Assembly: GCA_023374045.1 (NCBI GenBank)
Contig: CM041778.1
Coordinates: forward strand, 285,921,533-285,985,532
Length of the DNA stretch: 64,000 bases
Source of the DNA: Limonium bicolor
Lineage: Eukaryota; Streptophyta; Magnoliopsida; Caryophyllales; Plumbaginaceae
Direction of reading: 5' to 3'
In this document: positions 3,909-62,216 of the stretch, piece after piece
Numbering within the stretch: the stretch's first letter is position 1
Layout: the number at the start of each line of letters is the position of its first letter
The notes under the pieces: generated by a model
Seen by the model: the letters and a program-made list of their open reading frames with translations, nothing else
Databases searched by the model: none
Told to the model about the DNA's origin: nothing
Program-made: the position numbers and the translations under genes

Positions 3909-4465
3909 AATTCCGATTATAATTATACGGGTTATATATTATGTAACGTATTAATTGGATGATTGAGTATTATATAATATGGTGGATTCAGTTTTTGTGT
4001 TATACGTTACGTATATAAAATAATATTCGCACATGATATTAAAGTGCTGCTTTCTAGTTTTTTTTTCATTTACTCATTTTATCTACTTTGTTATCATTAT
4101 ACAAGGTTAATTACATAAAAAAAATTCTACAACCGGTTTCAATTAACCTGAATTACCGTATCACTCTAAATGATTAACTTAAATACAATTAACTGAAGTA
4201 AATGAAATATTAACAATTTTTAAAAACTGTATTTCCCATTTAACGGCACCGAATACCTTACCGTGAACAAATATTGATTATACTTGATCTCTTATATGTA
4301 TATCCTCTGCGCCATTCCCACTATATCGGTGCTTAAAAGGACACAAATTCGTTTCTCCTCAAATAAAAAAGACACAAAATCGCATTTATATGTTTTTATC
4401 GGGGGGAGGGATCTCTTTTCTAGAAGTTATTTGTTTCAGTAAAACTGAGAACCCAAATTTTTAGG
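3909..4465. other. AT-rich spacer
   Basis: AT-rich sequence between LTR A and the MULE. I see no ORF, RNA gene or recognisable repeat here. Confidence 0.6.
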
Positions 4466-39522: not shown

Positions 39523-41805
39523 CACTTTCCAAGCTCTACAATTCTGTGCCATTGCTATCGTAACAGATTTAAGCTACAAAAACATTCAGTTTTCTCTACC
39601 AAAGACCTTGGAATTTCTCCAAGACCATAACATATAACATAGTATAGGAAACAGGGCCTTGAGTTTATCTCGCATTAGAAATTCACCTTGCTTACCAATA
39701 TATGTCGTTAGCCACTTATCTAGGGACAAGTTATAAAACGACAATCTGTTTACAGAAGAGATCAGTTTATCCCAAATCTGTCTAGCAACCTTACAATCTC
39801 TTAAATATGAATGATAGTCCCCTCTTTCCCACAAAAGCGACAGCTGCAATCCCTTGTGAAACCCAAATCAAAACGTTTAGAGTTTGTCATAAGCTTCCCC
39901 TGGCAAACCCTCCACAGAAATAATTTGATTCTCTCTCCTGCACTTTAATTTTCCAGATTTTGTTGCACAGATCAGAAAACTCCTCATTTTTATCATGGAG
40001 AGAGGATTTACCAAAGAGTAAATTATATGCGAACTTTACACTATAGACCCACTGGGCTCAAACTGCTAGCTCACATAATCAGAGACTCCATTAGGAAAAA
40101 CAATGACACTACTTAATAAAGTATGATATTCAGCAGGAAGAAAATTAGATAAGATATCCCAGCGCTAACCCTCAACTTGCTGCCAGTACTTAGCAACATC
40201 ATCACTTAATAAATCCTAGGCACTTCCTTAGTAGCTACTGATAAAAGGTTAGAGAAAGTAAGCCAGAAGTCCAGCCAAAATTTAACAGTTCTGCCGTTTC
40301 CTATGACCCTACGAGCCCCTTATTCAATGATCTCAGAGCACTTTCGAATATTTTTCCAATTTACTGAACATCTTTTGGAATTTAAATTTGAATATTTACC
40401 AAGAGAGTTCTCTGGCAAAGATTACTAGGCTTGCTAATCAGATTCCACACAACTTTCCCAAAACATGCTCAGTTCATTTCTTTAGACCTGCGTATTCCTA
40501 AACCCCCTTTATCTTTAAAGTAGCAAAATCTTTCCCAACTTATATCATGGAGCTTTCTACTTTCCGAATCATGACCCCAAATAAAGTCTCTACATAATTT
40601 ATCTATATTATTGCAAACTGAAATCAGCATAATCTGGCATTGCATTGTATGCACTGGGATAAAGGAAACTGCACTCTTGACTAAACAGATCCTACCAGCC
40701 ATGGAGAGGGCATTCCTCTTCCAGTCGCCTAACCTCTCTCTAACTCTAGACAAAATAATATTATACTCCTTGTTTGATTTTCTGTCCTGAAGCACATTAA
40801 TCCCCAAAAAGTTATCAAACTTCCTAGTTGTGGGCATACTTGATTCAGTCCGAATAATATCTTCCCTATCACTGCTTACATTCTTAGACACTAAAACAGA
40901 AGATTTTTCAAAGCTTACTACCTGACCAGAGGCTTTACAAAACATATTGATACACTCACGCATAACCTCAATTTGCCTCGGATTAGCTGAACCAAAGAGA
41001 ACCAAATCATCAGCGAAGAAAACATGTGAGAGAACGTTATCCTTACCACCTAAACGGAGAGGATTCCAACATTTCCTATCCACTTGGGTCTGTATAATTT
41101 GGGAAAGCCTCTTCATACAGAATACAAAAAGGTACAGTGATAAGGGATCACCTTGATGTAATCCCCTCCCAGCAATGAAGGATTTTGAAAGATTTCCATT
41201 CCAACTAACCTGAAATGAGACTGTGGTAATGTAAAAAATAATAAGATTTTTAAAACCTACGGGAAGACCCAGGCAGTCTAGGGTATCTACTATAAAGCTC
41301 CAGGACATAAAGTGATAGGCTTTATCTAAATCGACTTTCATAGCAATGTACCCCTCCCTCGCCTTTATGTGTTCCATGCAGTAGACTGCTTCTTGAACAA
41401 GAATTATGTTCTCAAAAATACTTCTGCCCGGTACAAAGCTAGCTTGGCTATCCGACACCCACCCTGACATGAAGGGTTTTAATCTATTCGCTATGATCTT
41501 GGCAAGGATTTTGTACTACACTTAGAAAAGGGAATGGGCCTAAAATGTTTAACCTCCGTGGGAGACTCAATTTTGGGGATCAAAGTTAAAACAGTTTCAT
41601 TAATTCTAGGATTAAAGAACTAGCAGAGAAGGCATTTGCAACAAACCTCACAAGATTAGCAGAGACTACATCCAAAAACTGTTTATAGAAACCTACAGAA
41701 AAACCGTCTTTTCCAGGGGCCTTAAATGGTTCATGTACTTAAGAGCATTCCTAATTTCTAAAGAAGTTACCTGAGAGTCCAAAGAGGATTTCTCCTCTCT
41801 ATTAA
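39523..41805 (-). mobile_element. LINE 3, RT and zinc-finger segment
   Basis: Minus-strand order: the KAPGKDGFS-type pre-RT region in broken frames (about 41760-41640), RT (41470-40469), a degenerate linker, and a zinc-finger region (39849-39586, LLWERGDYHSYLRDCKVARQ). It is cut at 41805 by the LTR of element B, so the 5' part is lost or lies beyond the right end of that element. Confidence 0.88.
40469..41470 (-). pseudogene. LINE 3 reverse transcriptase
   Basis: A 333-residue open stretch with L1-type RT motifs: QASFVPGRSIFENIILVQE, MKVDLDKAYHFMSWSF, GLHQGDPLSLYLFVFCM, and the active site HVFFADDLVLFG with both Asp residues kept, unlike LINE 2. The C-terminal part shows NFLGINVL, LGDWKRNALSMAGR and WGHDSESRKLHDISW. 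No start codon belongs to it; it is an internal piece of ORF2 from a truncated element and probably inactive. Confidence 0.9.
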
Positions 41806-44800
41806 TGTAACACCCCTACCGTTAATCCTATTCTTACCGTCTAATCGTCCTGTTAATTCTATCAGTTCGCAGCGGAAATACTACTATTACTACGGCGGGT
41901 GGTACAACGCCACTAACCGCCCATACTGCTAGCAATGCTTACACTACCTACAGTGACGGTCTGATGCCTAAGTATACCGAGCTACTACTTCCCATACCAA
42001 TTACAAAAGATAACATACTTACGTTGCTGGATTACCGAGTATTTAAAGTATTTAATTACATCTCTTACTAGTCTTCCCAAAGAATGAGTTTCTACCAACT
42101 ACTCAACTATACCAATTCTCCATCCTTCCTTTATCCAAAAGGGTGTACCCTATGGTACACCGGCTAACAAAATCCTACAGCCGTGTACAACATAGTACAC
42201 CATTCACGTTTCATTGTTTACAGACAAAAAGAAGTCAAACTAGAACTCTTCGTCATCTTCATCCTTCTCGAGTACCTGCGTGTAGTAAAAACATCGCCCC
42301 AAGGGGCTCAGCAAAAGCTGCGCATGAACTCCGCATATACCGCGTGCTAGCTAGGGCACGCCGACTATTTAGGGTCGACTGAACATGCAGTTCATTAATT
42401 TCATACATACATGCTTCACATTCATCATACATTCATGCTCAATACAATACATAATTCAGGGCAACAATCCAATAGCATACACAATCTTTACCTTCACAAG
42501 GGTAGCCAAGTTGCGCATCCGGGTTAATCGGAATGCAATTTACTCTTTTACTCATTACACATTACTTACTCTTACTTACACTTACTTACTTTTCCATACT
42601 TATTACTCATTCTTACTTACTTACTTTTGCTCATGTTAAGTCGGTATGACCTCCGGCCCGGGGACTACACCATCCCACCACCGGGATTTACTTGACTCAC
42701 CAATCCGGGATGCTACCCATTTAAGGGGTTTGGGCCGCGGACCAGTTTAAGAGTCAGGACTTGGATCCAACCTCTTGTGTCTCCGCATCCTCACACGTGG
42801 CCGAAACTATATCGGACTTCTACTCATTCCAATTTAATTACCAATTTAAGTTAGATTGGTTAGCTTGTTAGGAATCAGTTAGAAGTCCAATCACAACTTA
42901 TTCGGTCACAGTACAGTACATCATACATACACACACTCATGTTCATCCATACATTTCATGAATTATACAAACTACGATTTAAGAAGATATGCAACAAGGA
43001 ACAATCTCATGATATTCACAAGTAAGCATAATATATCCGATTCGTGCGTTTATCTTATTTGGTGATCAATTAGCACACAACACACAAATCAGAGTAACCA
43101 AGATAGCATACGGGGCATAAGGAATTCATACCGTTCTCCGTTGTACTTGTACCCGACGTTCCTCCGGTGTACACAATTCAAATCCTATGATATACATACA
43201 ATCGAGTGATTAATCTAACTATCATTAACTTAACTCGACTACTCTTACGTTCCTAACTCATACTTACTATACCTGTACAATTCTTATACTTACATATGGT
43301 TTACTTACTCTTTATTACTTTTAAAACTTGTTTATACTCTTAATAACCTTTAAACATCCTTAATTAAGTCCTAATTATCTTATACTATCATTACCATTCA
43401 CTTCCTTACCTTAATACCCATTTAATACACTTAATTTTACATTTTTGGTTGGTCCGGGACCTTGTCCAGGTCTTATGTCCCGGACCAACACATGGTCACA
43501 CTCTCGGATATTTTTAATGGCATGGTCCGGGTCCTCATACAGGACTTGAGTCCCGGACCAGAGGCAGTTAAAAGTCTCGGCATGTTTTTGTAGGGTGGTC
43601 CGGGTCTTATACATGGGACCAAGTCCCGGACCCATGTTGCAGAAAGTCTTGGCTATATTTCAGGGGGGTCCGGGTCCTTGTATGGGACTTAAGTCCCAGA
43701 CCACCTCCTTGTTCCAACTCTCGGCTATATTTTCCAGTATGGTCCGGGTCCTTGTCCATGGACTAAGTCCCGGACCCGCTGCAGTATTTTGCAGATTTCA
43801 ACATTTTCTTTATCTGTTACAAACCAAACTTTGTCTAATTAATCCCCCATTGTTCCTACACTTACTCCCACATATTTTAGCACCTAATTAGGCTCCTAAA
43901 CATGTTTAAATCCATTGCTAACCTATTACTCCTTCTATGCTAATTCACTCATCTATTTTCTTAAGTCCTCATTTCAGCACTTACATTCTTTTCTCTAGTT
44001 GCATTATGCTACAAATTCCAACTCCCACTTTCTCCACCTTTAGCTCCCTCTTCTAATGTCATTTCTAATGCTTACAAAGTATTTACCATCTCTCATAACC
44101 TACCCATTAACTAGATCAAATCAAAATCTGTCACAAGACTATTTTTACCTAGGTTTCTAGTTTCTAAGTGTTCTAGTTCTAGGTAAATTTTGACATAACC
44201 TCCCCTATAAATGTACATTCTCACCACATCATTCTCACATTTTGTTACCCAATTCACCTGTTTTCAACAATCATAAATATACAAAGCTCCCATACACAAA
44301 TGCCAAACACTAACCACTCTTAAAGATTCCTGCACACTAAATTCAATTCCCATCTAGTTGTGACATTTTTTTACTTGTCTTTCAAGCTTCAATAATAGTT
44401 TAGTTCTTCTTCTCATTATACTACTACTCCTTACTATTTTACAATACACATTTCAAACTTCTAAAATCTGTTACATAAGTATATACAAGACTACACAAGG
44501 ATAAGCATAATGTACCTTGTTTCTCTTCTAGTTTTTCCTTTTCTCCTTCTTGCTTCTTCCTTGTTCCTTCTCTCTCTTTCCACCGGTTTTAGTAACCCAA
44601 ATTCTCTAACACTACAACCCATACATACACACCATTTTAATTCCAACTAGCCCTTAGATTATATTAATGCTTTAAGGTAAATTTCTAGGGTTTAGAATTT
44701 CATTACCTTGCAAGGAGAGTAGATGAAGCTTAGAGTAGCACAAGGACAATATTTCTACTCCTCCAACAAATGCCAAAATCGGCTGGAACAAGAAGGAGGG

Positions 44801-45695
44801 GAGTTCAACACTTAGGAATCTCTATTTTGAGAATAAGAGCAAGGAAAAGTAATGCTTTTCGATTTCTTTTTACCTTAAACCAAAGAGGTGAAAGAGGGCC
44901 TTCTAATGGTGGTCTTAAAGCTCCAAACAAGAATACCCATGGAGATGAAAGTTCTTGTTTTTGAAAAGAGGGAAATGTTCCCCTTGATGAGAGGAAGACA
45001 ATGGTGTAATTTTTGTAATTTTTGGAGTAGGTTTAGACACCTAACAAGATGAGAGAAGTGGAGTTTTGTGAGTGTTCTTCTTTCTCCATTGTTATCGGCT
45101 AAAGAAGGAAGAAAGAAATCAGAGAGTGAGGAGGAGGTAGGGGTGTACGTGAGTGAAGGAGAAGGAGAGGTGGGGAGAGAGAGGTGAGTGAGAGAAGGAA
45201 AGGAGTAGAAGAGAGTGTAGTAAAGTAAGTTATTTAGTTTGTTGTGTTGTTGAGAGTAGAGATGGGAGTGGTTGTGTGTGAGAGAGGAGAGGATGGGGGC
45301 CGGCTGGCACACAGCACCACACACACACACTCTACACTTTTATTTTCAAAAGTGGACACATAAGTTTGTGTTATTGTGCTTTTACCCCACAACTTCCGTT
45401 TTTGACAGTTTTTACTATTTTCTCGTTTTATTGGTTTTATTGGTTCTGAGGCTTCACTAATATTTATTAATGATTATTTAGTTGACAAAATTGTTATGAG
45501 TCTATTTGACCCGCTTAAAGTCACGTTTTCCTGGTTTCCTCGAAAAACGTGCTTTAAGGTTCGTTGGTGTTTTTAATCCGTTTTAAGGATCCGTTTTCTT
45601 CGGGATTTATTCCCTTATGATTATTTATACTTAATTAAGCTTCTAAAATATTTATTAGCCTAATTAATCACTATTTCTAATTACGGGGTATTTCA
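41806..45695 (-). repeat. Element B 3' LTR
   Basis: 3,890 bp, TGTAACACCCC on the left to GGGGTATTTCA on the right (plus strand), so TGAAATACCCC...GGGGTGTTACA in transcript sense. It has a C/T-rich leader region (about 45330-44900), a donor-like AAG/GTAAAA at 44873-44872 and a hairpin array at 43440-43780. It aligns with 58499-62216 throughout, with many small differences. Confidence 0.93.
43440..43780. repeat. Tandem hairpin array, element B 3' LTR
   Basis: Five units begin GGTCCGGG or GGTCCGGGTC at 43451, 43524, 43597, 43667 and 43741 (spacing 73, 73, 70, 74). Each closes with a GTCCCGGACC-type arm after about 15-20 bases. Linkers carry CTCGGCTATATTT and AACTCTCGG. Confidence 0.92.
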
Positions 45696-46152: not shown

Positions 46153-46889
46153 CTAGTCTATGAATAATTGTGGGTATTTCGCCTTTATGGCATCTTCCAA
46201 CTCCCATGTCGCTTCTTCAACATCATGGTTTGACCATAGGACCTTCACCATTCGTATAGACTTATGGCGAGTGTCTCTGGTCTTCCTATCAAGGATTCTC
46301 ACGAGGGTTTCAACATATCTCATTGTCGGCTCAATGGAAAGTCTCTCGGGCTCTAGGACATGAGAAGGATCAAAATGTACTTCTTGAGTTGTGACATATG
46401 AAATACATCATGGACACGTCCCAAGTCCTCAGGTAGTGCTAACCTGTAGGCTACAACTCCAACTCTCTCGGTGATAGCATACGGCCCTACAAACTTTGGG
46501 CTCTGTTGCCCTTCTGACCAAAACGGAATACGCCCTTCGTAGGTGAAACACGCAAGAACACTTGGTCGCCCACGGTGAACTCAAGGTCTCGTTGTCTCAC
46601 ATCCGTATAGGATTTCTGCCAATCTTGGGCTGCCTTTATATTGGCTCGGATTTGTTGCACTTCACTTCCGCTTGGACTTGTTCTAAATACTCCGGTCCTA
46701 TGATGACCGCTTCGCTTGATTCATCCCAACACAAAGGTGTACAGCAAGGTCTACCGTATAGGGCTTGGAAAGGCAACATCTTAATCGAAGCATGATAGCT
46801 ATTGTTGTATGAAAACTCGATAAGATGAAGCTTATCTAACCAACTCCCCTGAAAGTCTAAGGCATATGCCCGAAGCATGTCCTCTAGTG
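46153..46889 (-). pseudogene. Element B integrase C-terminus and chromodomain
   Basis: Minus strand from the element C insertion point: TLEDMLRAYALDFQGSWLDK and a FSYNNSYHASIKMLPFQALY stretch continue the integrase. A GPY/F-like region follows in other frames. At the end is a chromodomain (RYVETLVRILDRKTRD, IRMVKVLWSNHDVEEATWE, ending AKYPQLF and TAG at 46153). In chromoviruses this module steers insertion toward modified histones. Frameshifts lie between about 46360 and 46636. Confidence 0.9.
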
Positions 46890-46894
46890 TCTGG

Positions 46895-48397
46895 TGATAA
46901 GCCGCAGACTTATCATATTTTATGCACTAGATTTAGTATTTTATTTATCTAAATAAAGTTATATTTATGTTATTTATGCTTATTATGTTAAAATATAATA
47001 TTTGTACAGTCTTATGTTTTTATGAGTTTTCTGTGCAAGGAATGATTTTCTAGGCAAAAGTTCAGTTGAAGCCGGACTCCATGCCGGGTAGTTTCTGCAC
47101 GGCAGTACAGAACAGAAAGAAGCCTTGCCGGATGTGATGCCGGGTAAATGCTATCCGGCATGAGTGTAAAATCGCCTCGATTGACCATACGACAGCACAT
47201 GTGATCCACGTGTTTTCCAACCGCTGCCGGGTGTGATGCCGGGTAATTCCTACCCGGCATAAGCACTGTTTCGCACGGACATCGACGGTTTCGACCGTTA
47301 ACAGTTGGGCGCATTTATCACGTGTGCCGGCTATTGGTGACCCGGCACGATGCCCGGCATAGACACAATTAATGCCTATAAATAGGCCGAGGAAGGCTAC
47401 AACTCAACACACTTCAACACCCATATACACTCCACTCACAACTCCAATTCCGCCCACTCCATTGTTGGTGTCCAAGGAAGTTTCTACAGTTCCATCCACG
47501 CGAAGAAGAAAAAGAAGATCTTGTCGGGTTAAGGCTATGACCATTCCCTTATCCCCTTTGTATTCTCTTCTTGTAGTTGTGTGGGTGGGGATGTAGAACT
47601 CCTTGCTTATTATTGGTTAGGGATGAATTCCTTCTTGTAAACAATATGATTTCTTTAATATAATTTTCAAGTTTATTTTGAGTAAGGTTCTTATTGAAAG
47701 AGAATAGGTTGATCTCTTTTTCTCTTCATGCAATTCTTACTTGTGGAAGACAAGTCCCAAGTAAGATAGGTTAGACTCTCTTAATGGTCTTTCTACTCTC
47801 TTCTTATGAATTAAGAGTTAGTAGTAAGAGTGAGAATTAATCCATCTTTCCCATTACTTTGTTCATTTCGTGGCATGATATATGCTCGGATTGTTAATAG
47901 GTAGTGAGTCTTCTGTTTTCTTCTCGGAAACTGGAGAAAGAATATGCATTATGACTATGCCGCGGATGCACTGCCGGGTGGCCAATGTCCGGCATATTCA
48001 ATGTCTTTGAATATGCCGTGCATCTGGTATCCGGCAGGACACCCGGCGTGTTCAGTTGTTGGTTAATTCGAAGGCCTGTGTTTATGTTTAGAGTTCATAT
48101 TGATGCTTAGATGGTTTTACACCCTGGATCAAGGATAATTTCATTGTAATTACCACTTAGTTTAGTTAGTTTTGATTAGGATTAGAAAAATTTCAATTCC
48201 CCCCTTGTCTTAGAATAGGTATTACCGGATTAGGACTAGTTTTCTATAAGTCCCTTGGGTTCGATACTCTCGGTCGTAATATATTTACACTATACTCCGA
48301 CCGGGTTTTATTTTGCTACCCGTAGTAGAGTTGTAGGAATAGGTTATTATTTTATTTATTTTGTATATAGTTTTACCCTACAATTTCTCGATTAGCA
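46895..48397 (+). repeat. Element C 5' LTR
   Basis: TGATAAGCCGCAGACTTATC to CTCGATTAGCA. It contains GC-rich GCCGGGT...ACCCGGCA hairpin units at about 47070-47165, 47220-47265, 47322-47362 and 47958-48055. A CCTATAAATAGG TATA-like palindrome at about 47373 is probably the promoter core. Confidence 0.93.
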
Positions 48398-48420
48398 AAT
48401 TGGCGCCGTTGCCAGGGACT
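48398..48420 (+). promoter_or_regulatory. Element C primer-binding site
   Basis: TTGGCGCCGTTGCC lies two bases after the 5' LTR, the form usual in Athila/Tat-type plant elements. Confidence 0.8.
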
Positions 48421-48520
48421 TGGAATTAGTCCAAGTCCTAAATTCGGTAAAACGCCTTATTCTTATTCTTTGATTCCTTGATTCTTTAATTTATTTTCGC
48501 ACTTTGTTTGCAGATTTGAA

Positions 48521-49075
48521 TGTGCCGTTCAAAATGCTGGGCATCTGTCACCCGGCAAACGCGGAGGAAGTCCGATGCCGGATAGGATTGGCCCGACATC
48601 ATGTCCGGCATGTTCAAATTGTTTTCAAAATTTCATACATACGCTGTTAAGTTTAACAAATCTTAATGTATTCTTGTCTACTCCTTTCATTATTTTCCTC
48701 TTATATGAGTCCCTATACTATGTTCTTTATTTTGAATTTCGATTTTTGCGCATGCCGTGTATTGTGCCGGGTTTGATACACCCGGCAATATTGGAGGAAG
48801 TCCTATGCCGGACGGTTTGATCCGGTCATGTCACCCGGCATGATCAATTTCTCTCAATATTTTTGTCGCTCATTGTAGGGACAATTAGGAGTAATCTCCT
48901 ACAACCCCTTATTTACTCTTACATTTAATTTGATTATCCTTTACATTTTCTTTTAATTAAGTTATGTTCGATTTTTGGTCACGCCGGGCAACATGCCGGT
49001 TTGTATACACCCGGCATTAGTGGAGGAAGTCCACTGCCGGTTAAAACGCACCCGGCACACCGTCCGGCATAACCA
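48521..49075 (+). repeat. Three leader cassettes with a GGAGGAAGTCC core
   Basis: Cores at 48563, 48793 and 49022 (spacing 230 and 229 bp). Each cassette has a CACCCGGCA arm before the core, then TGCCGG, then a (C)CCGGCAT arm, giving nested stem potential. Sequence between the cassettes is poorly conserved. Lies between the PBS and gag. Confidence 0.85.
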
Positions 49076-49186
49076 AAATTTATTTCTTCTTCTTGTATTT
49101 TCATAAGTCTAATTACGTCATTATATATTTATTTATTTTTTAATATTATAACGTTATGTCTTGCTCCTCATATAGTTAAAAGGTGA

Positions 49187-50586
49187 ATGCTTCTTCGGTC
49201 AACAAGTACTCCTGAAAATTTAGCCAACTTTGATCCGGAGATCGAGAGAACCCTGCTTCAAAATTTAAGGCAACAACAAACCCTTCAAAAGCAGATCCTA
49301 CACCAATGGCAGCACCTACCGTCCGTAACATAAACCGGCCTTCTAACCAAGGCCAGAAACCAGCAATCGACCTTCCTATCCTTCCTCAAACCGAATACGA
49401 TGAATGGCAGAAACTTAAGCCATATCATCAAATTAGATGCATAAAAGAGTTAGGATTGTTCGATGGTACAAACCCGGACGATGCCTTGCTCCACATCACC
49501 AATTCTTCTTGCAACACACAAACAACCTAACCTCCACAAATAATGTCCTCCAATACGCCAGACTTGCTCTCTTCCCCCATAGTCTTACGGGGAACGCCAG
49601 CAAGTGGTACCACAGTCTAACCCCCAGTACCATCACCACAAGGGAGGACATGGCAACCAAATTTTATGACAAATTCATGCCCCCTAGTCGCACCCTGGAG
49701 ATGATCGCCGACATTTACAACTTCAGACAACCTAGCTCGGAGAACATCTGTGAGACTTGGGACAGATTCAAAGGGTTGTTGCGCACATGTCCACACCACG
49801 GCCTCACCAAGGAACAACTATCTCAGTTGTTTTACAAAGGATTGGTCAACCAATGCAAAACCATGATCCTTTCCTCCCTTGGTGCAGATATATTAAAGAA
49901 GCCTGGAGATCAATTCCTTAGTGGAGTTGAATCTCTTTGCGAAGAGATTAGAGATTGGGCCACGGTGGAACCAGGGGCAGTACCACTGGTTTATATCAAG
50001 TGGGAGAGGGCGACTCCAAACTCGACAAATTGATGCAAAGTCATGAGCAGTTGTTGGAGAGAAATGCCCAGACATCAACAAAGGTTAGTGCTCTACAGAA
50101 AGTGGTGGAGCAATAGCAATGAACAAACTTCCTCAACAAGCGAACGTGGTTAGTGCACGACCGCACGCTTCGAGCCCTGACATTCCAGACTTCCAGAATG
50201 TTGAGGAAGTCAACTATGTGAGTAACCAAGGGTATCGGCAGCCATGGCAACAGGGGAACCAACCCCCTCAGCACTTCCAGAGTCAAGCCGGCTACCAGGG
50301 AGGTCCAAGACAATACAGACCATCCCACCCTGCATCATCATCAGAGGCTGAAATGGCTGAACTTCGTGACATGATGTCAGCCCTGATGAATAAGACCCAG
50401 GATACTCAAAATGAGATCTCGACCATTCGCAAGGAGCACAAATCGTTGCAGTTGCAGTTACAGCAACTTCTGATGCAACCACGACAGCAAGGTCAGCTCC
50501 CGTCCCAAACGCAAACCAATCCACGGGATCAGGAGCATGCGAATTCGGTCACTATCCTGCCAAGGAACTCAGATAACGCCAAGTAG
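49187..50586 (+). pseudogene. Element C gag (Athila-type), frameshifted
   Basis: ATG at 49187 opens with NFDPEIERTLLQNLR, the usual Athila gag start. The frame shifts before PILPQTEYDEWQKLKPYHQI (about 49375), again near 49505, then runs through the retrotrans_gag core (YARLALFPHSLTGNASKWYH, DMATKFYDKFMPPSRT, ETWDRFKGLLRTCPHHGL, EQLSQLFYKGL). A third shift lies before 50119, where a Gln/Pro-rich tail with a coiled-coil-like segment begins (ELRDMMSALMNK, NEISTIRKEHKSLQLQLQQL). No zinc knuckle and no protease follow. In autonomous relatives, gag forms the capsid. Confidence 0.88.
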
Positions 50587-51627
50587 CCTAAAAGGCTAAG
50601 TGTAGGGCGGTTCCTCCTCACGCCTTCACTATCAACCAGGGGAGCCTTTCTTCCAATTTAATTTTTCTCCTTTAAATTTATGTTCTTGTTTTTTTTTAAT
50701 TGCTTTCATTATAGTTATTTTAAGTTTCTTTAAAAAAAAAGAGTTTTGCTTATTCATTTTCTTTCGAACACTGGGGACAGTGTTCCTACCAAGTGTAGGG
50801 CAGGGACCCCCCTTAAAAAATAAGTTTTTTTAGCAATATGCATAAGTTTTGTGTTTTATCAATGTTTTACTAAACTTTTTGCATGTTTTTGATTGAGATA
50901 AGATTAGGAATGACTAAAAGCTTGTTCTCTCAAGAGGTAAGCTTTCTAATGACTTGTAGATTCCTGTTTTTAACTTTTTGATTCCCTTTATTAACATGAG
51001 TACATGATCTTGCTCCTAATTCTTTCCTTTATGTACTTATGGGTGTTATTCTTTTCTTTTCAAATTGTGAAAAATCTTTTGGGTGAAAATCTTAAAAGGG
51101 TTTTTGTGCAAAAGAAAAAAAAAGAAGAAAAAATCTTCTTCTAAAGGAAAAGCAATATATTCCTAGAGGTTGCATAAAGTGCCTAAGAATAAAAGCAAGA
51201 AACGAGAGTTTTTCCTTTTATTTTTCTCCTAAATTCCCCGTTCTTCAATGCAAAAAAATATCATGGTTGATTCAGAAACTCTTGCAAAATAGGGCTGATT
51301 CATAAAACCATTAATGAGAGTCTTGGCCACATTCAGAAACTCTTGAAAAATAGAGCTGAATGATGGAAACCGGAAAAAGGAGAGATTACAAATCCCTTAT
51401 GCAAAATAGCCCAAAAGTTTTTGATCGATTTTGAAATTCCTTGTTTTATACCCATTAGTATGTTTTGACAAGATAAGGTAGATTAAGTGATACTTATGAG
51501 TTAGAGTCATATAGTTGGAAATATTTATCTACATTTCATTCTAGAGTTTATCTGTTTTGTGCATAAGTAATTAGTCCTTTCTAATCTTGTTTTGCTCGAG
51601 GACTAGCAAAAGGTAAGTGTAGGGCCT
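50587..51627 (+). other. Element C non-coding internal region
   Basis: About 1 kb between gag and the 3' LTR where relatives carry pol. Contains CACTGGGGACAGTG at about 50769 and three copies of AAGTGTAGGGC (50598, 50791, 51615), the last touching the LTR and probably part of the polypurine tract. No ORF of note. Confidence 0.75.
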
Positions 51628-53126
51628 TGATAAGCCGCAGACTTATCATATTTATGCACTAGATTTAGTATTATATTTATCTAAATAAAGTTATATTTAT
51701 GTTATTTATGCTTATTATGTGTTAAAATATAATATTTGTACAGTCTTATGTTTTTATGAGTTTTCTGTGCAAGGAATGATTTTCTAGGCAAAAGTTCAGT
51801 TGAAGCCGGACTCCATGCCGGGTAGTTTCTGCACGGCAGTACAGAACAGAAAGAAGCCTTGCCGGATGTGATGCCGGGTAAATGCTATCCGGCATGAGTG
51901 TAAAATCGCCTCGATTGACCATATGACAGCACATGTGATCCACGTGTTTTCCAACCGCTGCCGGGTGTGATGCCGGGTATTCCTACCCGGCATAAGCACT
52001 GTTTCGCACGGACATCGACGGTTTCGACCGTTAACAGTTGGGCGCATTTATCACGTGTGCCGGCTATTGGTGACCCGGCATGATGCCCGGCATAGACACA
52101 ATTAATGCCTATAAATAGGCCGAGGAAGGCTACAACTCAACACACTTCAACACCCATATACACTCCACTCACAACTCCAATTCCGCCCACTCCATTGTTG
52201 GTGTCCAAGGAAGTTTCTACAGTTCCATCCACGCGAAGAAGAAGAAAGATCTTGTCGGGTTAAGGCTATGACCATTCCCTTCTCCCCTTTGTATTCTCTT
52301 CTTGTAGTTGTGTGGGTGGGGATGTAGAACTCCTTGCTTATTATTGGTTAGGGATGAATTCCTTCTTGTAAACAATATGATTTCTTTAATATAATTTTCA
52401 AGTTTATTTTGAGTAAGGTTCTTATTGAAAGAGAATAGGTTGATCTCTTTTTCTCTTCATGCAATTCTTACTTGTGGAAGACAAGTCCCAAGTAAGATAG
52501 GTTAGACTCTCTTAATGGTCTTTCTACTCTCTTCTTATGAATTAAGAGTTAGTAGTAAGAGTGAGAATTAATCCATCTTTCCCATTACTTTGTTCATTTC
52601 GTGGAATGATATATGCTCGGATTGTTAATAGGTAGTGAGTCTTCTGTTTTCTTCTCGGAAACTGGAGAAAGAATATGCATTATGACTATGCCGGATGCAC
52701 TGCCGGTGGCCAATGTCTGGCATATTCAATGTCTTTGAATATGCCGTGCATCTGGTATCCGGCAGGACACCCGGCGTGTTCAGTTGTTGGTTAATTCGAA
52801 GGCCTGTGTTTATGTTTAGAGTTCATATTGATGCTTAGATGGTTTTACACCCTGGATCAAGGATAATTTCATTTAATTACCACTTAGTTTAGTTAATTTT
52901 GATTAGGATTAGAAAACATTTCAATTTCCCCCCTTGTCTTAGAATAGGTATTACCGGATTAGGACTAGTTTTCTATAAGTCCCTTGGGTTCGATACTCTC
53001 GGTCGTAATATATTTACACTATACTCCGACCGGGTTTTATTTTGCTACCCGTAGTAGAGTTGTAGGAATAGGTTATTATTTTATTTATTTTGTATATAGT
53101 TTTACCCTACAATTTCTCGATTAGCA
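51628..53126 (+). repeat. Element C 3' LTR
   Basis: 1,499 bp, same termini as the 5' LTR. Followed by the TCTGG duplication and then the integrase of element B. Confidence 0.93.
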
Positions 53127-53131
53127 TCTGG

Positions 53132-55807
53132 ATAGTCCTTTCTGTCTGACCGTCGGTCTGAGGATGGAAGGCGGTACTCAGCTTCAATTCTGTACCCAAC
53201 GCTTCCCGTGTAGCTCTCCAGTATCTCGAAAGAAATCTGGTGTCGCGGTCAGATACTATGGTTTTCGGGACTCCGTGATGTCTGATAATCTCCTTGTCGA
53301 ACAGCTCTGCGAGCTTCACTACCTTCCAGGTGTCCTTCATCGGTATGAATCTGGCAACCTTGGTAAGGCGATCGACTATAACCAAATCATGTTGAGTCCT
53401 CCCCTGGCAGGTGGGAGTCCAACAACAAAATCCATGGAGATATCGTGAAACTTCCACTCCGGAACTGGCATCGATTGTACCATTCCGCCCGGTCTACGAT
53501 GTTCGAATTTCACCTTCTGGCATGTTAAGCATCTGAATAAAAATTTTGTCACATCCAATTTCATTCCAGACCACCAGAAGTACCTCTTCATGTCTTTGTA
53601 CATCTTGGAGGCTCCCGGATGGACTGACCATGTGGAACTGTGTGACTCTCGCAGGATGCGATCCCTTAGCTCAGCATTGCTTCGGGGGATGCATAGCCTG
53701 CCATTCAATCGAATTAGACCATCTTCATGTAGCTTGAAGTCGTACTTTTTCTTCTCAAATGTACCATTTTTGATTTTTGTCTGATTTCGGTTAGGTAAGG
53801 GTCGCTCAACTGAGCGTCTAGCACCTGTCAACCAAGCTAGAAGAAGCGAGTAGCAAATGGAGCGAGTGTGCTCGACGGCTCAGGGCGTCGGCTACAATGT
53901 TTGCCTTCCCTTCCTTATACTGTAGGTCGATGTCGTAGTCTGAGAGAAACTCCATCCACCTTCTCTGTCTTAAGTTCAATTCCTTCTGCGTGAATACATA
54001 CTGTAAGCTCTTGTGGTCGGAGTAGATGGTGATGCTTACCCCATAGAGATAGTGTCGCCATATCTTCAAGGCGAAGACAATGGCTCCTAACTCTAAGTCA
54101 TGTGTCGGGTAATTCTCCTCATGCTTTTTCAGCTGGCGGGAGGCATAAGCTACAACCTTGCCATGCTGCATGAGTACGCATCCCATTCCTTTGCCTGATG
54201 CGTCGCAATATACTTCAAATCCCTCTGTGCCCTCTAGAAGTGTGAGAATCGACGCTGAGGTCAATGAGTCTTTCAGGCTCTGAAATGATAATTCACATTC
54301 GTCTGTCCATACAAACGGTGCATCTTTCTTCATCAATGTAGTAATGGGCTTAGCGACTTTTGAGAAGTCCTTTACGAATCTCCGGTAGTACCGGCTAGAC
54401 CAAGAAAGCTCCGAATGTCGGTAACAGTCTTAGGTCTAGGCCATGATCGTACATCTTCAATCTTAGAAGGGTCAACTGAGATACCTACACTCGAGATGAC
54501 GTGACCAAGGAATGATACCTGATCTAGCCAGAACTCGCACTTGGAGAACTTCGCATACAACTGGTTCTCGCGCAGTGTCTCAAGTACTTCCCTTAAATGA
54601 AATTCATGCTCTTCTGCTGATTTCGAATATACGAGGATATCATCAATGAATACTACTACTAAGTGTCCAACTGTTCACTGAATAGCCAATTCATGAGATC
54701 CATGAATTTTGCTGGTGCGTTTGACAAACCGAATGGCATGATGGTGAATTCGTAGTGGCCATATCTGGTACGGAATGCCGTTTTCTTGATGTCTTGCTCT
54801 TTGATAGCAATCTGATGATACCCAGAACGGAGGTCGATCGTGGAGAAGACTGAGGCTCCTTTCAGCTGGTCGAATAAGTCGTCGATGCGTGGCAATGGGT
54901 ATTTGTTTTTGACTGTGACCGCATTCAGCTCGCGGTAGTCAATACAAAGTCGGAGGCTACCGTCCTTCTTCTTCACGAAGAGAACCGGTGCTCCCCAGGG
55001 TGATACGCTCGGGCGTATAAACCCTTTGTCAAGAAGATCGCGCAACTGCTCTTTTAGTTTGGTCATTTCTGCAGGTGCCATACGGTACGGTGCCCTAGCA
55101 ATGGGACCGGTACCTGGCAAGAGGTCAATCTCAAATTCTACTGCTCTCTGAGGTGGCATGTCGGGTAGCTCCTTAGGGAATACGTCGGGGAATTCGGATA
55201 CAATCGGTACATCTTCACTGAACTCTGGATCTCTCTCCAGGTCTTGTACATAACACAAATATACTTCATGGCCCTTTCTGAGCTCCCGGTACATGGCCAT
55301 AACGGAGATGACTGTGGTCGAAGGCTCTCTCGGTCTCTGGCGGTAAGATACAGTAACCCCAGAAGGACTCTTGAGCAGCAATCGGTGCTCGGCGCAGAGG
55401 ATTCTACCCTTGTGCCGCTCCAACCAATTCATTCCGACTATTAAGTCAAATCCCAATCCATTAAATTCGATGAAGGAGATGGGAAACGATTCGCCTCTGA
55501 TTTCAATCGTGGCTGATTTGTAATACTTGGTGCACTGTACTCGCTCCTTCGATGGAAGAGTAACCAGGAAATTCGGTAGCTCATCCGCATCTAACTTCAA
55601 CCTCTTCACAAAAGATGGTGATACAAAGGTGTGAGAGGCGCCGGAGTCGAATAACACATTGGCGTCAATGCCGTTCACTGGGAAGGTTCCCGTTAAGATG
55701 GTGCCGCTTCTGCCGGCTTGTGCTTCGATGAGGATGCTCAGGTTACCTTCGGTACCGAGTCCACAACCTATTGAAGTCATAATTTCATAAGTAATGATGG
55801 TGGACAC
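53132..55807 (-). pseudogene. Element B pol: protease, RT, RNase H, integrase (frameshifted)
   Basis: ATG at 55807 begins a frame without gag homology. In order: aspartic protease ([14 protein letters not shown], about 55660); RT ([52 protein letters not shown]; the [10 protein letters not shown] active site straddles a frameshift near 54650); RNase H ([56 protein letters not shown]); integrase (HPGASKMYKDMKRYFWW, CLTCQKVKFEHRRP, then DRLTKVARFIPMK, FHPQTDGQTERTIQ). At least four frameshifts break it. It continues at 46889 beyond element C. RT-before-integrase order defines Ty3/gypsy. Confidence 0.95.
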
Positions 55808-55833: not shown

Positions 55834-55839
55834 TTTATT
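55834..55839 (-). promoter_or_regulatory. AATAAA between AlkB and pol
   Basis: On the minus strand AATAAA lies 70 bases after the AlkB stop codon and 27 bases before the pol ATG. It could be a retained polyadenylation signal of a captured 3' UTR. A single hexamer in AT-rich DNA may also be chance. Confidence 0.4.
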
Positions 55840-55908: not shown

Positions 55909-56645
55909 TTAATACTTCCTAAAGGTAAGGTTCAGGCGTCCTGGTTTCATGTGTGTGGCATTGATTATTGCCGGTGGTGCTGTATTCAGCTTGATCTTGT
56001 TGATCCCGTGATACAGCATCCTAGATTTTCCACCCATGATTAGGACATCTCCTGATCTCAATACCAGTTTCTGTGCGAGGTCCACACGCTTCTGCTCGCT
56101 ATACAAAAATACGGCGTCATCACCTATGGACCAAGACACTACGGGCACTCCTTGTTCAAGAGATTCCGTTGTCTCGTCCTTGTCTTGGTGTAACCCAAGT
56201 CGTCCTTCTTTCTCATAGAAGTTGACGATACAAAGGTCCGCTTCAAGTGCGGGGATCGGATCATTTTCACATTGTGTGCAAGTTCCACTGCTTGTGTAAC
56301 AAGTGTACGAAACTCTGGAGGTATTGTCGGTGGCGTTACTCCGTCTCGTGTTCGTGTCTCTTGGTAAGTCTTGGTATAAGGATTCCAATCCTTTCCCAAG
56401 CACATCATTTTCAGCTTCATTTTCGCTCCACCGGGGAATCGGTTGTATAAAATCCTCCTTGATCCGTTCCTAGTTCGTTGCATCGTCGAATGATCGAGAT
56501 TTGGGCTTCGGTGTCAGGTATCCCCTTAATAAGATCATACCTGGTCAGATGACCTGACACTGCTCACTGGAGTAGTGGTGTGTGGTGATGTCGGTCTCTT
56601 CTTGATTCGGTTTCGAAGGTATTGGATAGCAGATATTAAAACTGC
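55909..56645 (-). pseudogene. AlkB-type 2OG-Fe(II) dioxygenase domain inside element B
   Basis: Minus strand, between gag and protease. Segments in order: PGMILLRGYLT, EAQISIIRRCNELG and GGFY, then KMKLKMMCLGKDWNPYT and PTIPPEFRTLV, then ADLCIVNFYEKEGRLGLHQD, VPVVSWSIGDDAVFLY, SGDVLIMGGKSRMLYHGI and GRLNLTFRKY with a stop at 55909. Iron ligands HxD (LHQDKDE) and the distal His (YHGI) are present, as is the C-terminal RxNLTFR that binds 2-oxoglutarate. The match is to AlkB/ALKBH enzymes, which oxidatively remove methyl groups from nucleic-acid bases. It nearest resembles plant ALKBH1-type sequences by eye. A TGA (probably from CGA) and three frameshifts, one in an A-run near 56262, break this copy. 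Confidence 0.92.
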
Positions 56646-56800: not shown

Positions 56801-57144
56801 CTAGGCCGGACTTAGAACCGGACCCGTCACGGTCAATAACATGCAAGACGGGCTGCCTCTGGGTGCGCCCCTCTGAGGACCCCGGGATCCCTGTCCCTGC
56901 GGTGCCTGCTGGGCTGGTGCATCGCCAGATGCAACCTCCTTGCCTTCCCTTTGCTTGTAGCCCTGGAAGTTTCCTCTGGGCTTAGCATTCTCTGGGCACA
57001 TATTAGCTCTATGTCCCGGTTTCTGACAGTTATAGCACTTGATTTCTCTCCCGTAGCAATCCTTGCCGGGATGGTCTTGGTTGCACTTCCTGCACACGTA
57101 GGTGCGGCCGTCGGAGAAGCTTTTGGTGAAACCGGAGCCAGAAC

Positions 57145-57227
57145 CTAAGGTTTAGAGAATTAGCACATTTGTGCAGGAATACAAGGTATGATACTTATGC
57201 AAATACATATTTAGATTCAAAGTTTAC
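57145..57227 (-). other. Gag intron 2 (83 bp)
   Basis: AAGG/GTAAAC donor and CCTTAG/GTT acceptor. The unspliced frame contains stops; removal restores the gag frame exactly before the CRKC zinc motif. Confidence 0.7.
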
Positions 57228-57508
57228 CCTTAGGTGGGTGTGATCTCAGTGGCTTCGCTGCCACCGGCGCAGAAGAACCTAGTTGAAGAAGCTCAACTGG
57301 TTTGCCCTGCTCAGCATGGGCACTGCTCTCACTTGGGAAGTTCTTTTGGTTTTATGAAAGAATTTCCCTTTCTTCTTTTTTTCCAGCTTTTCCCTTGGTT
57401 CTGCTCCTCGGCACTAGTGTTCTTGTTGTTAGCCTTGCGCTTCAGTGCGGTTTCTTCATCCCTTATTTGGCAAGTGATCTCAACGCGAGATGCCGCGTGA
57501 TAGCACTC

Positions 57509-57610: not shown

Positions 57611-58271
57611 CTGAAGAGAGGTAAATCGTGTGTAGCCCATACCGTACCGCAGGCGATGGCTCAGACCGCCATAGAAGCGATCGGCCAACACCTGGCCGGT
57701 GTGTACCCAAGGTCGGGTAGTAGACGGAGGATAGAAGTGAAGGTTCTGTAGTTTCATCCACAGACATCTTGTCTGTCATCTTCAGGCATCTAGCTCTAGC
57801 CTTTTCTTGGTTTTCACGTGCTCCGGATAGTATTGGATCGGAGGAGGGCTATGAAAGATTCCGGCAAGGTAGGGTCATCGACATGCTCATGCTTGATTAT
57901 CTTCCACCAATCCTGCTGCATCTTTAGATTTCTAGTAGCCGCTAACCTCACTCGAACTCCAGCAGGACATTCAGGGTTTCAATAATGCAGTCTCCATTTC
58001 GGAGATGTAAGCTTCCAGTTTAGTAGGATCGCTCTCGCCCCTAAAGCACGGAGGTCGGAGATCTGCGATAGCTTTTACCCAGTTCACTCTCTGGGTGGAG
58101 GGGGCGGGATTGGTCTCGTTGAGTCTGTTGGTTCTGTTGATTTTGTTGCATGGCGTTGATTACTTGTGGTAGCATCTGTGCTACCGTGGTGGCGACGATC
58201 TCAGCTAACGTCTGCGCGCCAGGTCCTTCAGAGGCTTCGCCTCTAGCTCGGCCTCGGCCTCGTCCTGACAT

Positions 58272-58498
58272 CTGAACATTTAGCATTTACATTAGGCTTC
58301 GCAAGATATGACCTAAGGGTCTGGTATTTAAGCAAAGATATCGTTCATAAGAACGTCAAGGGGTATCCGTTGTTCACAACGGTAGTTCCTAGTTGGGTTT
58401 ATAAGTATCCGTCTTAAGACGGTTGAAATCCTAACTCGGTAATCCCTATGCTCGGTAACCATGGACATCAGAGCGTAGTTACACTCTGATACACTTTT
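58272..58498 (-). promoter_or_regulatory. Element B leader: PBS and stem-loop cluster
   Basis: Minus strand after the 5' LTR: TGTATCAGAGTG resembles the initiator tRNA-Met site TGGTATCAGAGC. Its TATCAGAG can pair with CTCTGATG about 10 bases on. Then come CCGTCTTAAGACGG (58409-58422, perfect palindrome), CCGTTGT/ACAACGG (58367-58382) and CGTTC/GAACG (58342-58355). The leader ends at the acceptor TTCAG abutting the gag ATG. Confidence 0.7.
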
Positions 58499-61400
58499 TG
58501 TAACACCCTACCGTTAATCCTATTCTTACCGTATAATCGTCCTGTTAATTCTATCAGTTCGCAGGGAAAATGATACTATTACTACGGCGGGTGGTACAAC
58601 GCCGCTAACCGCCCATACGGCTAGCAAGGCTACACTACCTACAGTGACGGTCTGATGCCTAAGTATACTGAGCTACTACTTCCCATACCAATTACAAAAG
58701 ATAACATACTTACGTTGCTGGATTACCGAGTATTTAAAGTATTTAATTACATCCCTTACCAGTCTTCCCAAAAGAATGAGTTCTACCAATACTCATCTAT
58801 ACCAATTCTCCATCCTTCCTTTATCCAAAAGGGTGTACCCTATGGTACACCGGCTAACAAAATCCTACAGCCGTGTACAACATAGTACACCATTCACGTT
58901 TCATTGTTACAGACAAAAAGAAGTCAAACTAGAACTCTTCGTCATCTTCATCCTTCTCGAGTACCTGCGTGTAGTAAAAACATCGCCCCAAGGGGCTCAG
59001 CAAAAGCTGCGCATGAACTCCGCATATACGTGTGCTAGCTAGGGCACGCCGACTATTTAGGGTCGACTGAACATGCAGTTCATTAATTTCATACATACAT
59101 GCTTCACATTCATCATACATTCATGCTCAATACAATACATAATTCAAGGCAACAATCCAATAGCATACACAATCTTTACCTTCACAAGGGTTAGCCAAGT
59201 TGCGCATCCGGGTAATCGGAATGCAATTTACTCGTTTACTCATTACACATTACTTACTCTTACTTACACTTACTTACTTTTCCATACTTATTACTCATTA
59301 ACTTACTTACTTTTGCTCATGTTAATTCGGTATGACTTCGGCCCGGGGACTACACGTCCCACCACCGGGATTTACTTGACTCACCAATCCGGGATGCTAC
59401 CCATTTAAGGGGTTTGGGCCGCGGACCAGTTTAAGAGTCAGGACTTGGATCCAACCTCTTGTGTCTCTGCATCCTCACGCGTGGCCGAAACTATATCGGA
59501 CTTCTACTCATTCCAATTTAATTACCAATTAAGTTAGATTGGTTAGCTTGTTAGGAATCAGTTAGAAGTCCAATCACAACTTATTTGGTCACAGTACAAT
59601 ACATCATACATACACACACTCATGTTCATCCATACATTTCATGAATTATACAAACTACGATTTAAGAAGATATGCAACAAGGAACAATCTCATGATATTC
59701 ACAAGTAAGCATAATATATCCGATTCGTGCGTTTATCTTATTTGGTGATCAATTAGCACACAACACACAAATCAGAGTAACCAAGATAGCATACGGGGCA
59801 TGAGGAATTCATACCGTTCACCGTGTACTGTACCGATGTTCCTCCGATGTTCATAATTCAAAATCCTATGATATACATACAATCGAGAAATTAATCTAAC
59901 TATCATTAACTTAACTCGACTACTCTTACGTTTCCTAACTCATACTTACTATACCTGTACAATTCTTATACTTACATATGGTTTACTTACTCTTTATTAC
60001 TATTAAAAACTTGTTTATACTCTTAATGACCATTTAAACATCTTTAATTAAGTCCTAATTATCTTATACTATCATTACCATTCACTTCCTTACCTTAATA
60101 CCCATTAATACACTTAATTTTACAATTTTTGGTTGGTCCGGGACCTTCTCCAGGTCTTAAGTCCCGGACCAACACATGGTCACACTCTCGGCTATTTTTA
60201 ATGGCATGGTCCGGGTCCTCATACAGGACTTGAGTCCCGGACCAGAGGCAGTTAAAAGTCTCGGCATGTTTTTGTAGGGTGGTCCGGGTCTTGTACATGG
60301 GACCAAGTCCCGGACCCATGTTGCAGAAAGTCTCGGCTATATTTCAGGGGTGGTCCGGGTCTTTGTATGGGACTTATGTCCCGGACCACTCCTTGTTCCA
60401 ACTCTCGGCTATATTTTCCAGTATGGTCCGGGTCCTTGTCCATGGACTAAGTCCCGGACTTGCTGCAGTATTTTGCAGATTTCAACATTTTCTTATCTGT
60501 TACAAACCAAAATTTGTCTAATTAATCCCCCATTGTTCCTACACTTACTCCCACATATTTTAGCACCTAATTAGGCTCCTAAACATGTTTAAATCCATTG
60601 CTAACCTATTACTCCTTCTATGCTAATTCACTATCTATTTTCTTAAGTCCTCATTTCAGCACTTACATTCTTTTCTCTAGTTGCATTATGCTACAGATTC
60701 CAACTCCCACTTTCTCCACCTTTAGCTCCTTCTTCTAATGTCATTTCTAATGCTTACAAAGTATTTACCATCTCTTCTAACCTACCCACTAACTAGCTCA
60801 AATCAAAATCTGTCACAAGACATATTTTTACCTAGGTTCTAGTTTCTAAGTGTTCTAGTTCTAGGTAAATTTTGACATAACCTCCCCTATAAATGTACAT
60901 CTCACCACATCATTTACTCACATTTTGTTACCCAATTCACCTGTTTTTCAACAATCATAAATATACAAAGCTCCCATACACAAATGCCAAATACTAACCA
61001 CTCTTAAAGATTCCTGCACACTAATTCAATTCCCATCTAGTTGTGACAGTTTTTTTACTTGTCTTTCAAGCTTCAATAATAGTTTAGTTCTTCTTCCTCA
61101 TATTATACTACTACTACTATTTTACAATACACATTTCAAACTTCTAGAATCTGTTACATAAGTATATACAAGACTACACAAGGATAAGCATAATTTACCT
61201 TGTTTCTCTTCTAGTTTTTCCTTTTCTCCTTCTTGCTTCTTCCTTGTTCCTTCTCTCTCTTTCCACCGGTTTTAGTAACCCAAATTCTCTAACACTACAA
61301 CCCATACATACACACCATTTAATTCCAACTAGCCCTTAGATTTATTAATGCTTTAAGGTAAATTTCTAGGGTTTAGAAATTCATTACCTTACAAGGAGAG

Positions 61401-62216
61401 TAGATGAAGCTTAGAGTAGCACAAGGACAATATTTCTACTCCTCCAACAAATGCCAAAATCGGCTGGAACAAGAAGGAGGGGAGTTCAACACTTAGGAAT
61501 CTCTATTTTGAGAATAAGAGCAAGGAAAAGTAATGCTTTTCGATTTCTTTTTACCTTAACCAAAGAGGTGAAGGAGGGCCTTCTAATGGTGGTCTTGAAG
61601 CTCCCAAACAAGAATACCCATGGAGATGAAAGTTCTTGTTTTTGAAAAGAGGGAAATGTTCCCCTTGATGAGAGGAAGACAATGGTGTAATTTTTGTAAT
61701 TTTTGGAGTAGGTTTAGACACCTAACAAGATGAGAGAAGTGGATTTTTGTGAGTGTTCTTCATTTCTCCATTGTTATCGGCTAAAGGAGGAAGAAAGAAA
61801 TCAGAGAGTGAGGGAGGAGGGGTGTACGTGAGTGAAGAGAATGTGAGGGTAGGAGAGAGAGAATGAGAGGTAAAGTAAATAAAGTAGTTTACTTTATTGT
61901 TTTTGTTGTTTTGTAAATAAGAGGGAATAAGTGAGTGTGTGAGAGAGGGATGGGGGCCGGCTGGCACACAGCACACACACACACACTCTACACTTTTATT
62001 TTCAAAAGTGGGACACATAAGTTTGTGTTATTTATGCTTTTACCCCACAACTTCCTGTTTTTGACAGTTTTTACTATTTTCTCGTTTTATTGATTTATTG
62101 GTTCTGAGGCTTCACTAATATTTATTAATGATTATTTAGTTGACCCAAATTTTTACAAGTCTATTTGACCCGCTTAAAGTCACGTTTTCCTAGTTTCCTC
62201 GAAAAACGTGCTTTAA
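58499..62216 (-). repeat. Element B 5' LTR, outer end missing
   Basis: Aligns with the 3' LTR from TGTAACACCC at 58499 to GCTTTAA at 62216. The last 138 bp (equivalent to 45558-45695) are absent. It carries the donor-like AAG/GTAAAA at 61554-61553. It is diverged from the 3' LTR by many substitutions and indels, so the insertion is older than element C. Confidence 0.92.
60120..60465. repeat. Tandem hairpin array, element B 5' LTR
   Basis: Five GGTCCGGG-started hairpin units with the same spacing and linkers as 43440-43780. Several bases differ from the other LTR, for example a GTCCCGGACTTG end in the last unit. Confidence 0.92.

Follow-up and report, generated by a model that had tools for sequence, protein, structure and literature searches.

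The window analysed here is a 64,000-nucleotide stretch of the 2.92 Gb genome of Limonium bicolor (C3:285921533-285985532), and it contains, on the minus strand, one copy of a Ty3 chromovirus, old and decayed, in which an AlkB domain lies between gag and protease (Table 1). Assignment to the Ty3 chromoviruses follows from the long terminal repeats (LTRs), the protease-reverse transcriptase-RNase H-integrase order of the Pol domains and the chromodomain that ends the integrase; membership of the Tekay/Del clade is our guess from the long LTRs and remembered motifs. The primer binding site of the window copy is degenerate. In three of five fetched stretches from sister copies TGGTATCAGAGC stands directly after the LTR end, a site which we take to be of the tRNA-iMet type, and none was found in the other two.

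The LTRs of the window element are 95.4% identical over 3774 columns (K2P 0.034), which gives an age of about 1.3 to 2.4 million years at two assumed rates. Both gag and pol are broken, and the integrase is interrupted by a younger LTR element whose own repeats differ by 12 substitutions in 1495 columns and which has gag-like plus-strand ORFs (by eye) near 49437-50586. Single bases account for 36 of the 42 indel events between the LTRs of the window element, but for only four of eight between those of the nested one; some of the frame changes around the window element might be assembly errors instead of decay. Elsewhere in the window, and likewise judged by eye, are long Ty1/copia-like ORFs on the plus strand at 19088-23047 (gag-like, integrase-like and RT-like), plus-strand ORFs at 28723-30750 resembling the exons of a host trichome-birefringence-like (TBL) gene, and LINE reverse transcriptase-like ORFs on the minus strand at 40469-41470 and 16196-16867.

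Table 1. Annotated features of the AlkB-bearing Ty3 chromovirus and its nested element, in window coordinates
Feature	Position	Strand	Evidence or remark
5' LTR	58499..62216	-	95.4% identity to 41806-45557; outer end unlike that of the 3' LTR
Primer binding site, degenerate, presumably tRNA-iMet type	58482..58493 (ends approximate)	-	Sequence
gag exon 1, broken by frame changes	57611..58286 (start approximate)	-	Conserved predicted donor at end
gag predicted exon 2	57228..57508	-	Acceptor and donor conserved in three subfamilies
gag predicted exon 3, CCHC zinc knuckle	56801..57144	-	PF00098 E=1.2e-07; conserved donor
AlkB, putative ALKBH1-type 2OG-Fe(II) dioxygenase, predicted alternative last exon	55909..56645	-	PF13532; 5xeg; conserved acceptor
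AATAAA hexamer after AlkB stop, possible poly(A) signal	55834..55839	-	Sequence
Pol exon start: aspartic protease and first part of reverse transcriptase	54662..55767	-	PF08284 E=1.9e-27; PF00078 E=1.3e-19; conserved acceptor
Rest of reverse transcriptase, other frame	54375..54674	-	PF00078 E=7.6e-12
RNase H	53818..54336	-	PF17917 E=3.5e-36
Integrase zinc-binding and core domains	53107..53831	-	PF17921 E=9e-18; PF00665 E=5.6e-05 (23.8 bits, below 32.6-bit cut-off)
Younger LTR element nested in integrase	46895..53126	+ (by eye, from gag-like ORFs)	LTRs 46895-48397 and 51628-53126, 98.7% identical
Integrase C-terminus (SH3-like) and chromodomain	46156..46580	-	PF24626 E=3.2e-18; PF00385 at 46156-46407, E=6.8e-06 (26.4 bits, cut-off 25.1)
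3' LTR (matched part)	41806..45557	-	Pairing with 58499-62216

The AlkB domain of the window copy

The preliminary description of this DNA had placed a nearly complete AlkB fold between gag and protease, on the strand of both, and the position is borne out. Inside the predicted AlkB exon, whose limits agree with those first described, a Pfam profile search of the window finds PF13532 (2OG-FeII_Oxy_2) at 55912-56403 on the minus strand (E=1.1e-32), flanked on the same strand by the gag zinc knuckle (56804-57151) and by protease-RT (54662-55807). An overlapping frame at 56142-56483 weakly matches an earlier part of the profile (E=0.0062; 17.2 bits against a cut-off of 31.2), and the motifs CLGKDWNP, CIVNFY, LHQDKDE, GGKSRMLYHGI and RLNLTFR are all present as described. 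The domain is there, but not in an intact frame: by eye its coding sequence passes through three frames, interrupted by three frame changes and an upstream stop, and the window copy as assembled is unable to make an AlkB protein.

Type and origin of the captured domain

Searches of PDB sequences return 5xeg as the best solved structure both for the window domain (E=5e-40) and for a copy of subfamily X (E=1.7e-70; subfamilies are defined below). This entry and 5XOI bear the database label 2OG-Fe oxygenase family oxidoreductase, and we take them to be rice ALKBH1. Each search yields 21 PDB sequences at E<=0.001, among them 5xeg, bacterial AlkB and ALKBH1, and none of these 21 is named ALKBH5; the nearest named relatives of the transposon domain are plant ALKBH1 proteins, labelled ALKBH1C or ALKBH1D. 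Judged by these relatives, the captured domain is classed as ALKBH1-type. Six close protein relatives (P0001-P0006) show 63-74% identity, a viral scan (IMG/VR) gives three loci at 33-37% identity, and a bacterial scan (GTDB) gives two bacterial AlkB. One annotated protein of Artemisia annua (P0121) has part of the AlkB domain tandemly repeated.

Host ALKBH1 exons account for two matches of 83% on C3, which come last in the list and below the transposon copies. Plant ALKBH1, as represented by the host gene at one of them (L084, C3:703632-704355) and by 5XEG/5XOI, has the same domain and catalytic residues as the transposon AlkB, but the host gene carries an intron within the domain, following the HQ codons. 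A second intron is suggested before VKII, where an acceptor-like site is seen and the match stops. The transposon frame is continuous at both places, and the missing host intron indicates that a spliced RNA was the source of the domain.

In a full-domain tree 50 host ALKBH1 rows, that of Limonium bicolor included, form one clade (96/93) from which the transposon copies are excluded, rather than nesting with the host genes; P0001, P0003, P0004 and P0006 also fall outside it, and the transposon-like side (13 rows) has values of 91/56. A core tree with X and Y rows unites 17 transposon-like rows, the window and P0001-P0006 among them, as a clade (98/88), whereas in an earlier core tree lacking the X and Y rows the window and P0001-P0006 were not one supported clade. 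The long or odd P0009 and P0121 were left out of the trees, P0147, P0208 and P0027 were dropped when the motif was not found in them, and the short P0002 and P0005 were dropped from the full-domain tree. The position of the transposon copies outside the host clade means that this host gene was not the source of a recent capture. The outgroup of the full-domain tree is bacterial AlkB only and long branches meet there, so that the depth of the transposon clade is not a date; fast evolution and the distant outgroup may make the clade look deeper than it is. A host pseudogene inserted by chance is ruled out, the host ALKBH1 lying elsewhere, with an intron, and grouping with the ALKBH1 of other plants.

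A fixed site in thousands of copies

Sequence comparison divides the 28 copies fetched through their AlkB domain into subfamilies X (23) and Y (5), and the window copy belongs to a third, W. Subfamily-specific AlkB 26-mers occur as exact matches at 5,152 (X), 1,336 (Y) and 1,924 (W) places in the whole genome, which are minimum counts, as the motif disappears with decay; reversed 26-mers, used as a control, occur at no place genome-wide. The AlkB-bearing family numbers thousands of copies.

A genome search with PF13532 gave 38,326 loose candidates. Of these 150 were scored and all exceeded the cut-off, 149 of them without an internal stop, although the list is ordered by profile score and therefore favours intact copies. 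The order gag-AlkB-protease/RT is identical in the window and in all eight AlkB loci fetched from this list; 20 further AlkB loci were fetched from the other 142 rows and picked for varied frame lengths. A protease-only search, which removes the bias towards AlkB, gave 45,829 candidates of which 150 were scored, and 20 places were hand-chosen at rough steps. AlkB lies directly upstream of protease at the same site in all 20, with its exon fully open in six and not fully open in 14. A single-copy accident is ruled out by these protease-selected copies.

A 26-mer from the Pol exon of subfamily X, between protease and RT, occurs at 4425 places. The exact AlkB 26-mer lies 850-1250 bases (median 1035) upstream of 59 of 86 such places on C1, with a chance expectation of 0.0006 per place; the 86 are those of the first 100 listed that fall within the stretch covered by the AlkB list. 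Of the 27 places without the exact AlkB 26-mer the first ten were checked, and nine have an AlkB match upstream while one has none. Same-direction AlkB elements about 10 kb apart are seen at C1:497439466-497470353, C1:18344111-18384824 and C5:83042590-83063371; these tandem runs look like head-to-tail multimers and may share LTRs.

Purifying selection on AlkB

The HxD...H iron ligands and the R...R and NxY residues for 2-oxoglutarate (2OG) are kept in all 28 AlkB-selected copies of X and Y, and the Fe(II)/2OG ligands also in the piece of subfamily W found in the window. Ratios of dN/dS (NG86) for AlkB are 0.148 for X-X (210 pairs), 0.093 for Y-Y (10 pairs), 0.127 for W-W (21 pairs) and 0.127 for X-W (147 pairs) at a dS of 1.34, as calculated from 21 of the 23 X copies, all five Y copies and the seven of 20 protease-selected W copies whose frame stays open throughout the domain; no ratio is given for X-Y and Y-W pairs, in which dS is partly saturated. 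The protease ratios, from the 28 of 58 copies that are open, are 0.147 (X), 0.117 (Y) and 0.237 (W), the last from a sample picked with a frame-changed AlkB query. AlkB is under purifying selection about as tight as that on protease and not clearly tighter. In DNA comparisons between subfamilies the AlkB exon reaches 73-75% identity, the initial 300 bases of Pol 67-71% and gag exons 2-3 59-63%, with shuffled DNA at 53-58%.

The W query spans the frame change of the window and favours copies sharing it; its copies entered the splice-site, protease and hexamer analyses but were kept out of the AlkB dN/dS. Frame changes at the position of that in the window are seen by eye in six of 12 other W loci (L035-L046), a sample in which the query favoured such copies. 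This suggests that W sub-lineages spread without an intact AlkB of their own, and these loci speak against a need for AlkB in every copy. The preliminary description had looked to further copies for support of a functional module, and the recurring gag-AlkB-protease order, the intact HxD...H residues and the within-subfamily ratios of 0.09-0.15 all agree with its expectation.

Predicted alternative splicing

Seven predicted splice sites are kept in 366 of 385 cases across 55 copies, against 1784 of 2265 cases for other GT/AG dinucleotides of the same introns, although the cases are not an independent count because the copies are related. All three subfamilies keep the sites around AlkB. In comparisons between subfamilies the identity of gag introns 1 and 2 is close to that of shuffled DNA and the identity of intron 3 is slightly higher, but gag exons 2-3 exceed the shuffled level by only about 0.04-0.07, so that a clear exon/intron contrast exists for AlkB and Pol only.

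The donor ending gag exon 3 breaks a codon after its first base, and in aligned rows of all three subfamilies the two missing bases are supplied by the AlkB and Pol acceptors alike, so that the one donor fits both exons. Read at the offset that this donor demands (offset 2), 14 of 23 X and five of five Y copies have an open AlkB exon, and none of 29 W copies from the sample picked by the frame-changed query has one; an open Pol exon at this offset is seen in 19 of 23 X, four of five Y and 16 of 29 W copies. Among the 56 copies with a readable stretch, AATAAA, AATGAA or AATAAT follows the AlkB stop in 51, a count with no chance control. With one gag donor in phase with both acceptors, AlkB seems to be an alternative last exon through which Gag-AlkB would be made in addition to Gag-Pol, although the shared acceptor phase has a 1 in 3 chance of having arisen once and then been inherited. 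AlkB could also start at an ATG of its own instead of being spliced onto Gag. A continuous Gag-AlkB-Pol polyprotein is ruled out by the stop that closes the AlkB exon and by the position of the Pol acceptor downstream of it.

Relation to other AlkB-bearing and spliced elements

Among 120 Pol relatives listed in a protein search none contains PF13532, and in 39 of them a gag or zinc-knuckle model and a protease model lie on one protein, so that gag runs into protease there without AlkB. The named relatives aligned over nearly the whole query come from Bienertia (62% identity), Amaranthus (61%), Cuscuta (60%) and Spinacia (59%); Bienertia, Amaranthus and Spinacia are, like Limonium, members of the Caryophyllales. 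AlkB-bearing plant RNA viruses, which are likewise plant genetic parasites, have the AlkB domain in their replicase. They are reported from the Alphaflexiviridae, Betaflexiviridae and Closteroviridae (PMC9289625).

Ty3 elements with AlkB have a precedent in Gypsy_Pa_2799 of Phalaenopsis orchids, whose ALKBH5-type domain has m6A RNA activity shown in vitro; of the 121 angiosperm genomes covered by that report, those of Phalaenopsis alone yielded AlkB in Ty3 elements (Alvarado-Marchena et al. 2022, PMC9289625). In both cases an abundant family of plant Ty3 elements has captured an AlkB domain and kept its cofactor residues. Gypsy_Pa_2799, however, is sister to Ogre within Tat, is 25.5 kb long with 6.4 kb LTRs, has a tRNA-Arg primer site in contrast to the tRNA-iMet type of site seen here, and has a single Gag-Pol ORF with the ALKBH5-type domain ending a separate ORF2, whereas in the Limonium element an ALKBH1-type AlkB lies between gag and protease and gag is predicted to be split by introns. 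The Limonium element also has a chromodomain, a feature absent in all non-chromoviruses according to PMC6317226. Membership of the orchid family is ruled out by AlkB type, primer site and AlkB position, and the differences in primer site, chromodomain, AlkB subfamily and AlkB position together indicate a second, separate capture. Among the matches listed from open-access PMC, no other report of such AlkB retrotransposons was found beyond PMC9289625 and a review citing it, and the word AlkB does not occur in two reviews on captured genes and extra ORFs. The AlkB of this family is separate from the one already described, although the idea itself, raised in the preliminary description with a call for a literature search, is not unprecedented.

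Splicing that would be comparable is reported from Ty1/copia elements, where spliced Gag-only RNAs are made by EVADE (shGAG; PMC8892269) and BARE1 (PMC3735527). There, as predicted here, splicing near the end of gag chooses between a Gag-type and a Gag-Pol product, but the short product is Gag alone, whereas a Gag-enzyme fusion in a Ty3 chromovirus is predicted for Limonium. The BARE paper also mentions splicing in Ogre, CRR and Bagy2 (PMC3735527).

Possible roles of the AlkB domain

We give about an even chance to the proposal that AlkB is spliced in frame onto Gag, is likely particle-borne, and strips methyl or alkyl groups from the nucleic acids of the element itself. Gag exon 3 would be joined to the AlkB exon to make Gag-AlkB instead of Gag-Pol, Gag-AlkB would be built into the particle, and the enzyme would there strip methyl or alkyl groups from element RNA, single-stranded cDNA and the RNA:DNA hybrid during reverse transcription; we infer the splicing, the Gag-AlkB product, its packaging, its activity and its substrate alike. 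The substrate is proposed because ALKBH1 reportedly takes as its substrate 6mA in R-loops as well as in single-stranded or unpaired DNA (PMC10469495), and as a reverse-transcribing particle would be full of such substrates, particle-borne cleaning of RNA and cDNA is favoured. A broader proposal, in which splicing picks Gag-Pol or Gag-AlkB, each particle carries a demethylase for cDNA, genomic RNA and perhaps tRNA-iMet, and the Limonium and orchid elements represent convergent AlkB arming of Ty3 from two host subfamilies, is put forward more tentatively, at somewhat less than an even chance. The preliminary description had already suggested that a host ALKBH was acquired to strip the element's RNA or cDNA; the recurrent site and purifying selection agree with this, but AlkB seems to be an alternative last exon and not a link in one polyprotein, and the idea has a precedent. 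Stripping of m6A, which it gave as an example, is not our first guess, the domain being of ALKBH1 type and not of the ALKBH5/9/10 type tied to m6A RNA (PMC9289625).

AlkB could instead be a separate protein, made from its own start codon or from its own transcript ended at the poly(A)-like signal, that clears 6mA at R-loops of the element's LTR in the nucleus and favours transcription. ALKBH1 of rice reportedly clears R-loops of 6mA and inhibits H3K27me3 or decreases the H3K27me3/H3K4me3 ratio (PMC10469495), the AlkB of the orchid element has an ORF to itself (PMC9289625), and the hexamers past the AlkB stop would suit an independent transcript; yet none of the copies read has an ATG where the AlkB exon begins, and the in-frame acceptor of that exon is conserved. 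We consider this nuclear role unlikely. Quite unlikely, too, is a role on host RNA, whether on m6A in mRNA, as suggested for the orchid element, or on m1A in tRNA, that of the tRNA-iMet primer of this element's reverse transcription included, although the primer site of the three sister stretches would fit it and a literature passage counted in its favour reportedly concerns m1A58 and tRNA-iMet. The orchid AlkB removes m6A in vitro (PMC9289625), but the Limonium domain is ALKBH1-type and not ALKBH5-type, and the primer link may be chance, tRNA-Met being the commonest plant primer at 39% of elements (PMC6317226).

Predicted splicing would fuse AlkB to the zinc-knuckle end of Gag, where the domain might be retained as a nucleic-acid-binding part that is no longer enzymatic. 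Nothing would prevent a pure binder from losing the Fe(II)/2OG ligands, however, and their retention in all 28 fetched copies of two subfamilies and in the window piece of a third makes a binding-only role improbable. Many copies of AlkB are broken, that of the window among them, as might be expected of a functionless passenger, a host cDNA caught once and carried along by amplification; this is very improbable given the low X-W dN/dS (about 0.13, at a dS near 1.3) and an exon that is still fully open in six of the 20 copies chosen regardless of AlkB.

Biological significance

One AlkB capture in orchids could be a mere curiosity. A second, separate capture, involving another ALKBH subfamily and another kind of Ty3 element, with thousands of copies and purifying selection, would point to a recurrent pressure, namely that nucleic-acid methylation or alkylation damage limits plant retrotransposons. 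Whether plant transposons are held in check through adenine methylation of RNA or cDNA thereby becomes testable, and the Limonium element would provide a clear case of alternative splicing loading an enzyme into retrotransposon particles.
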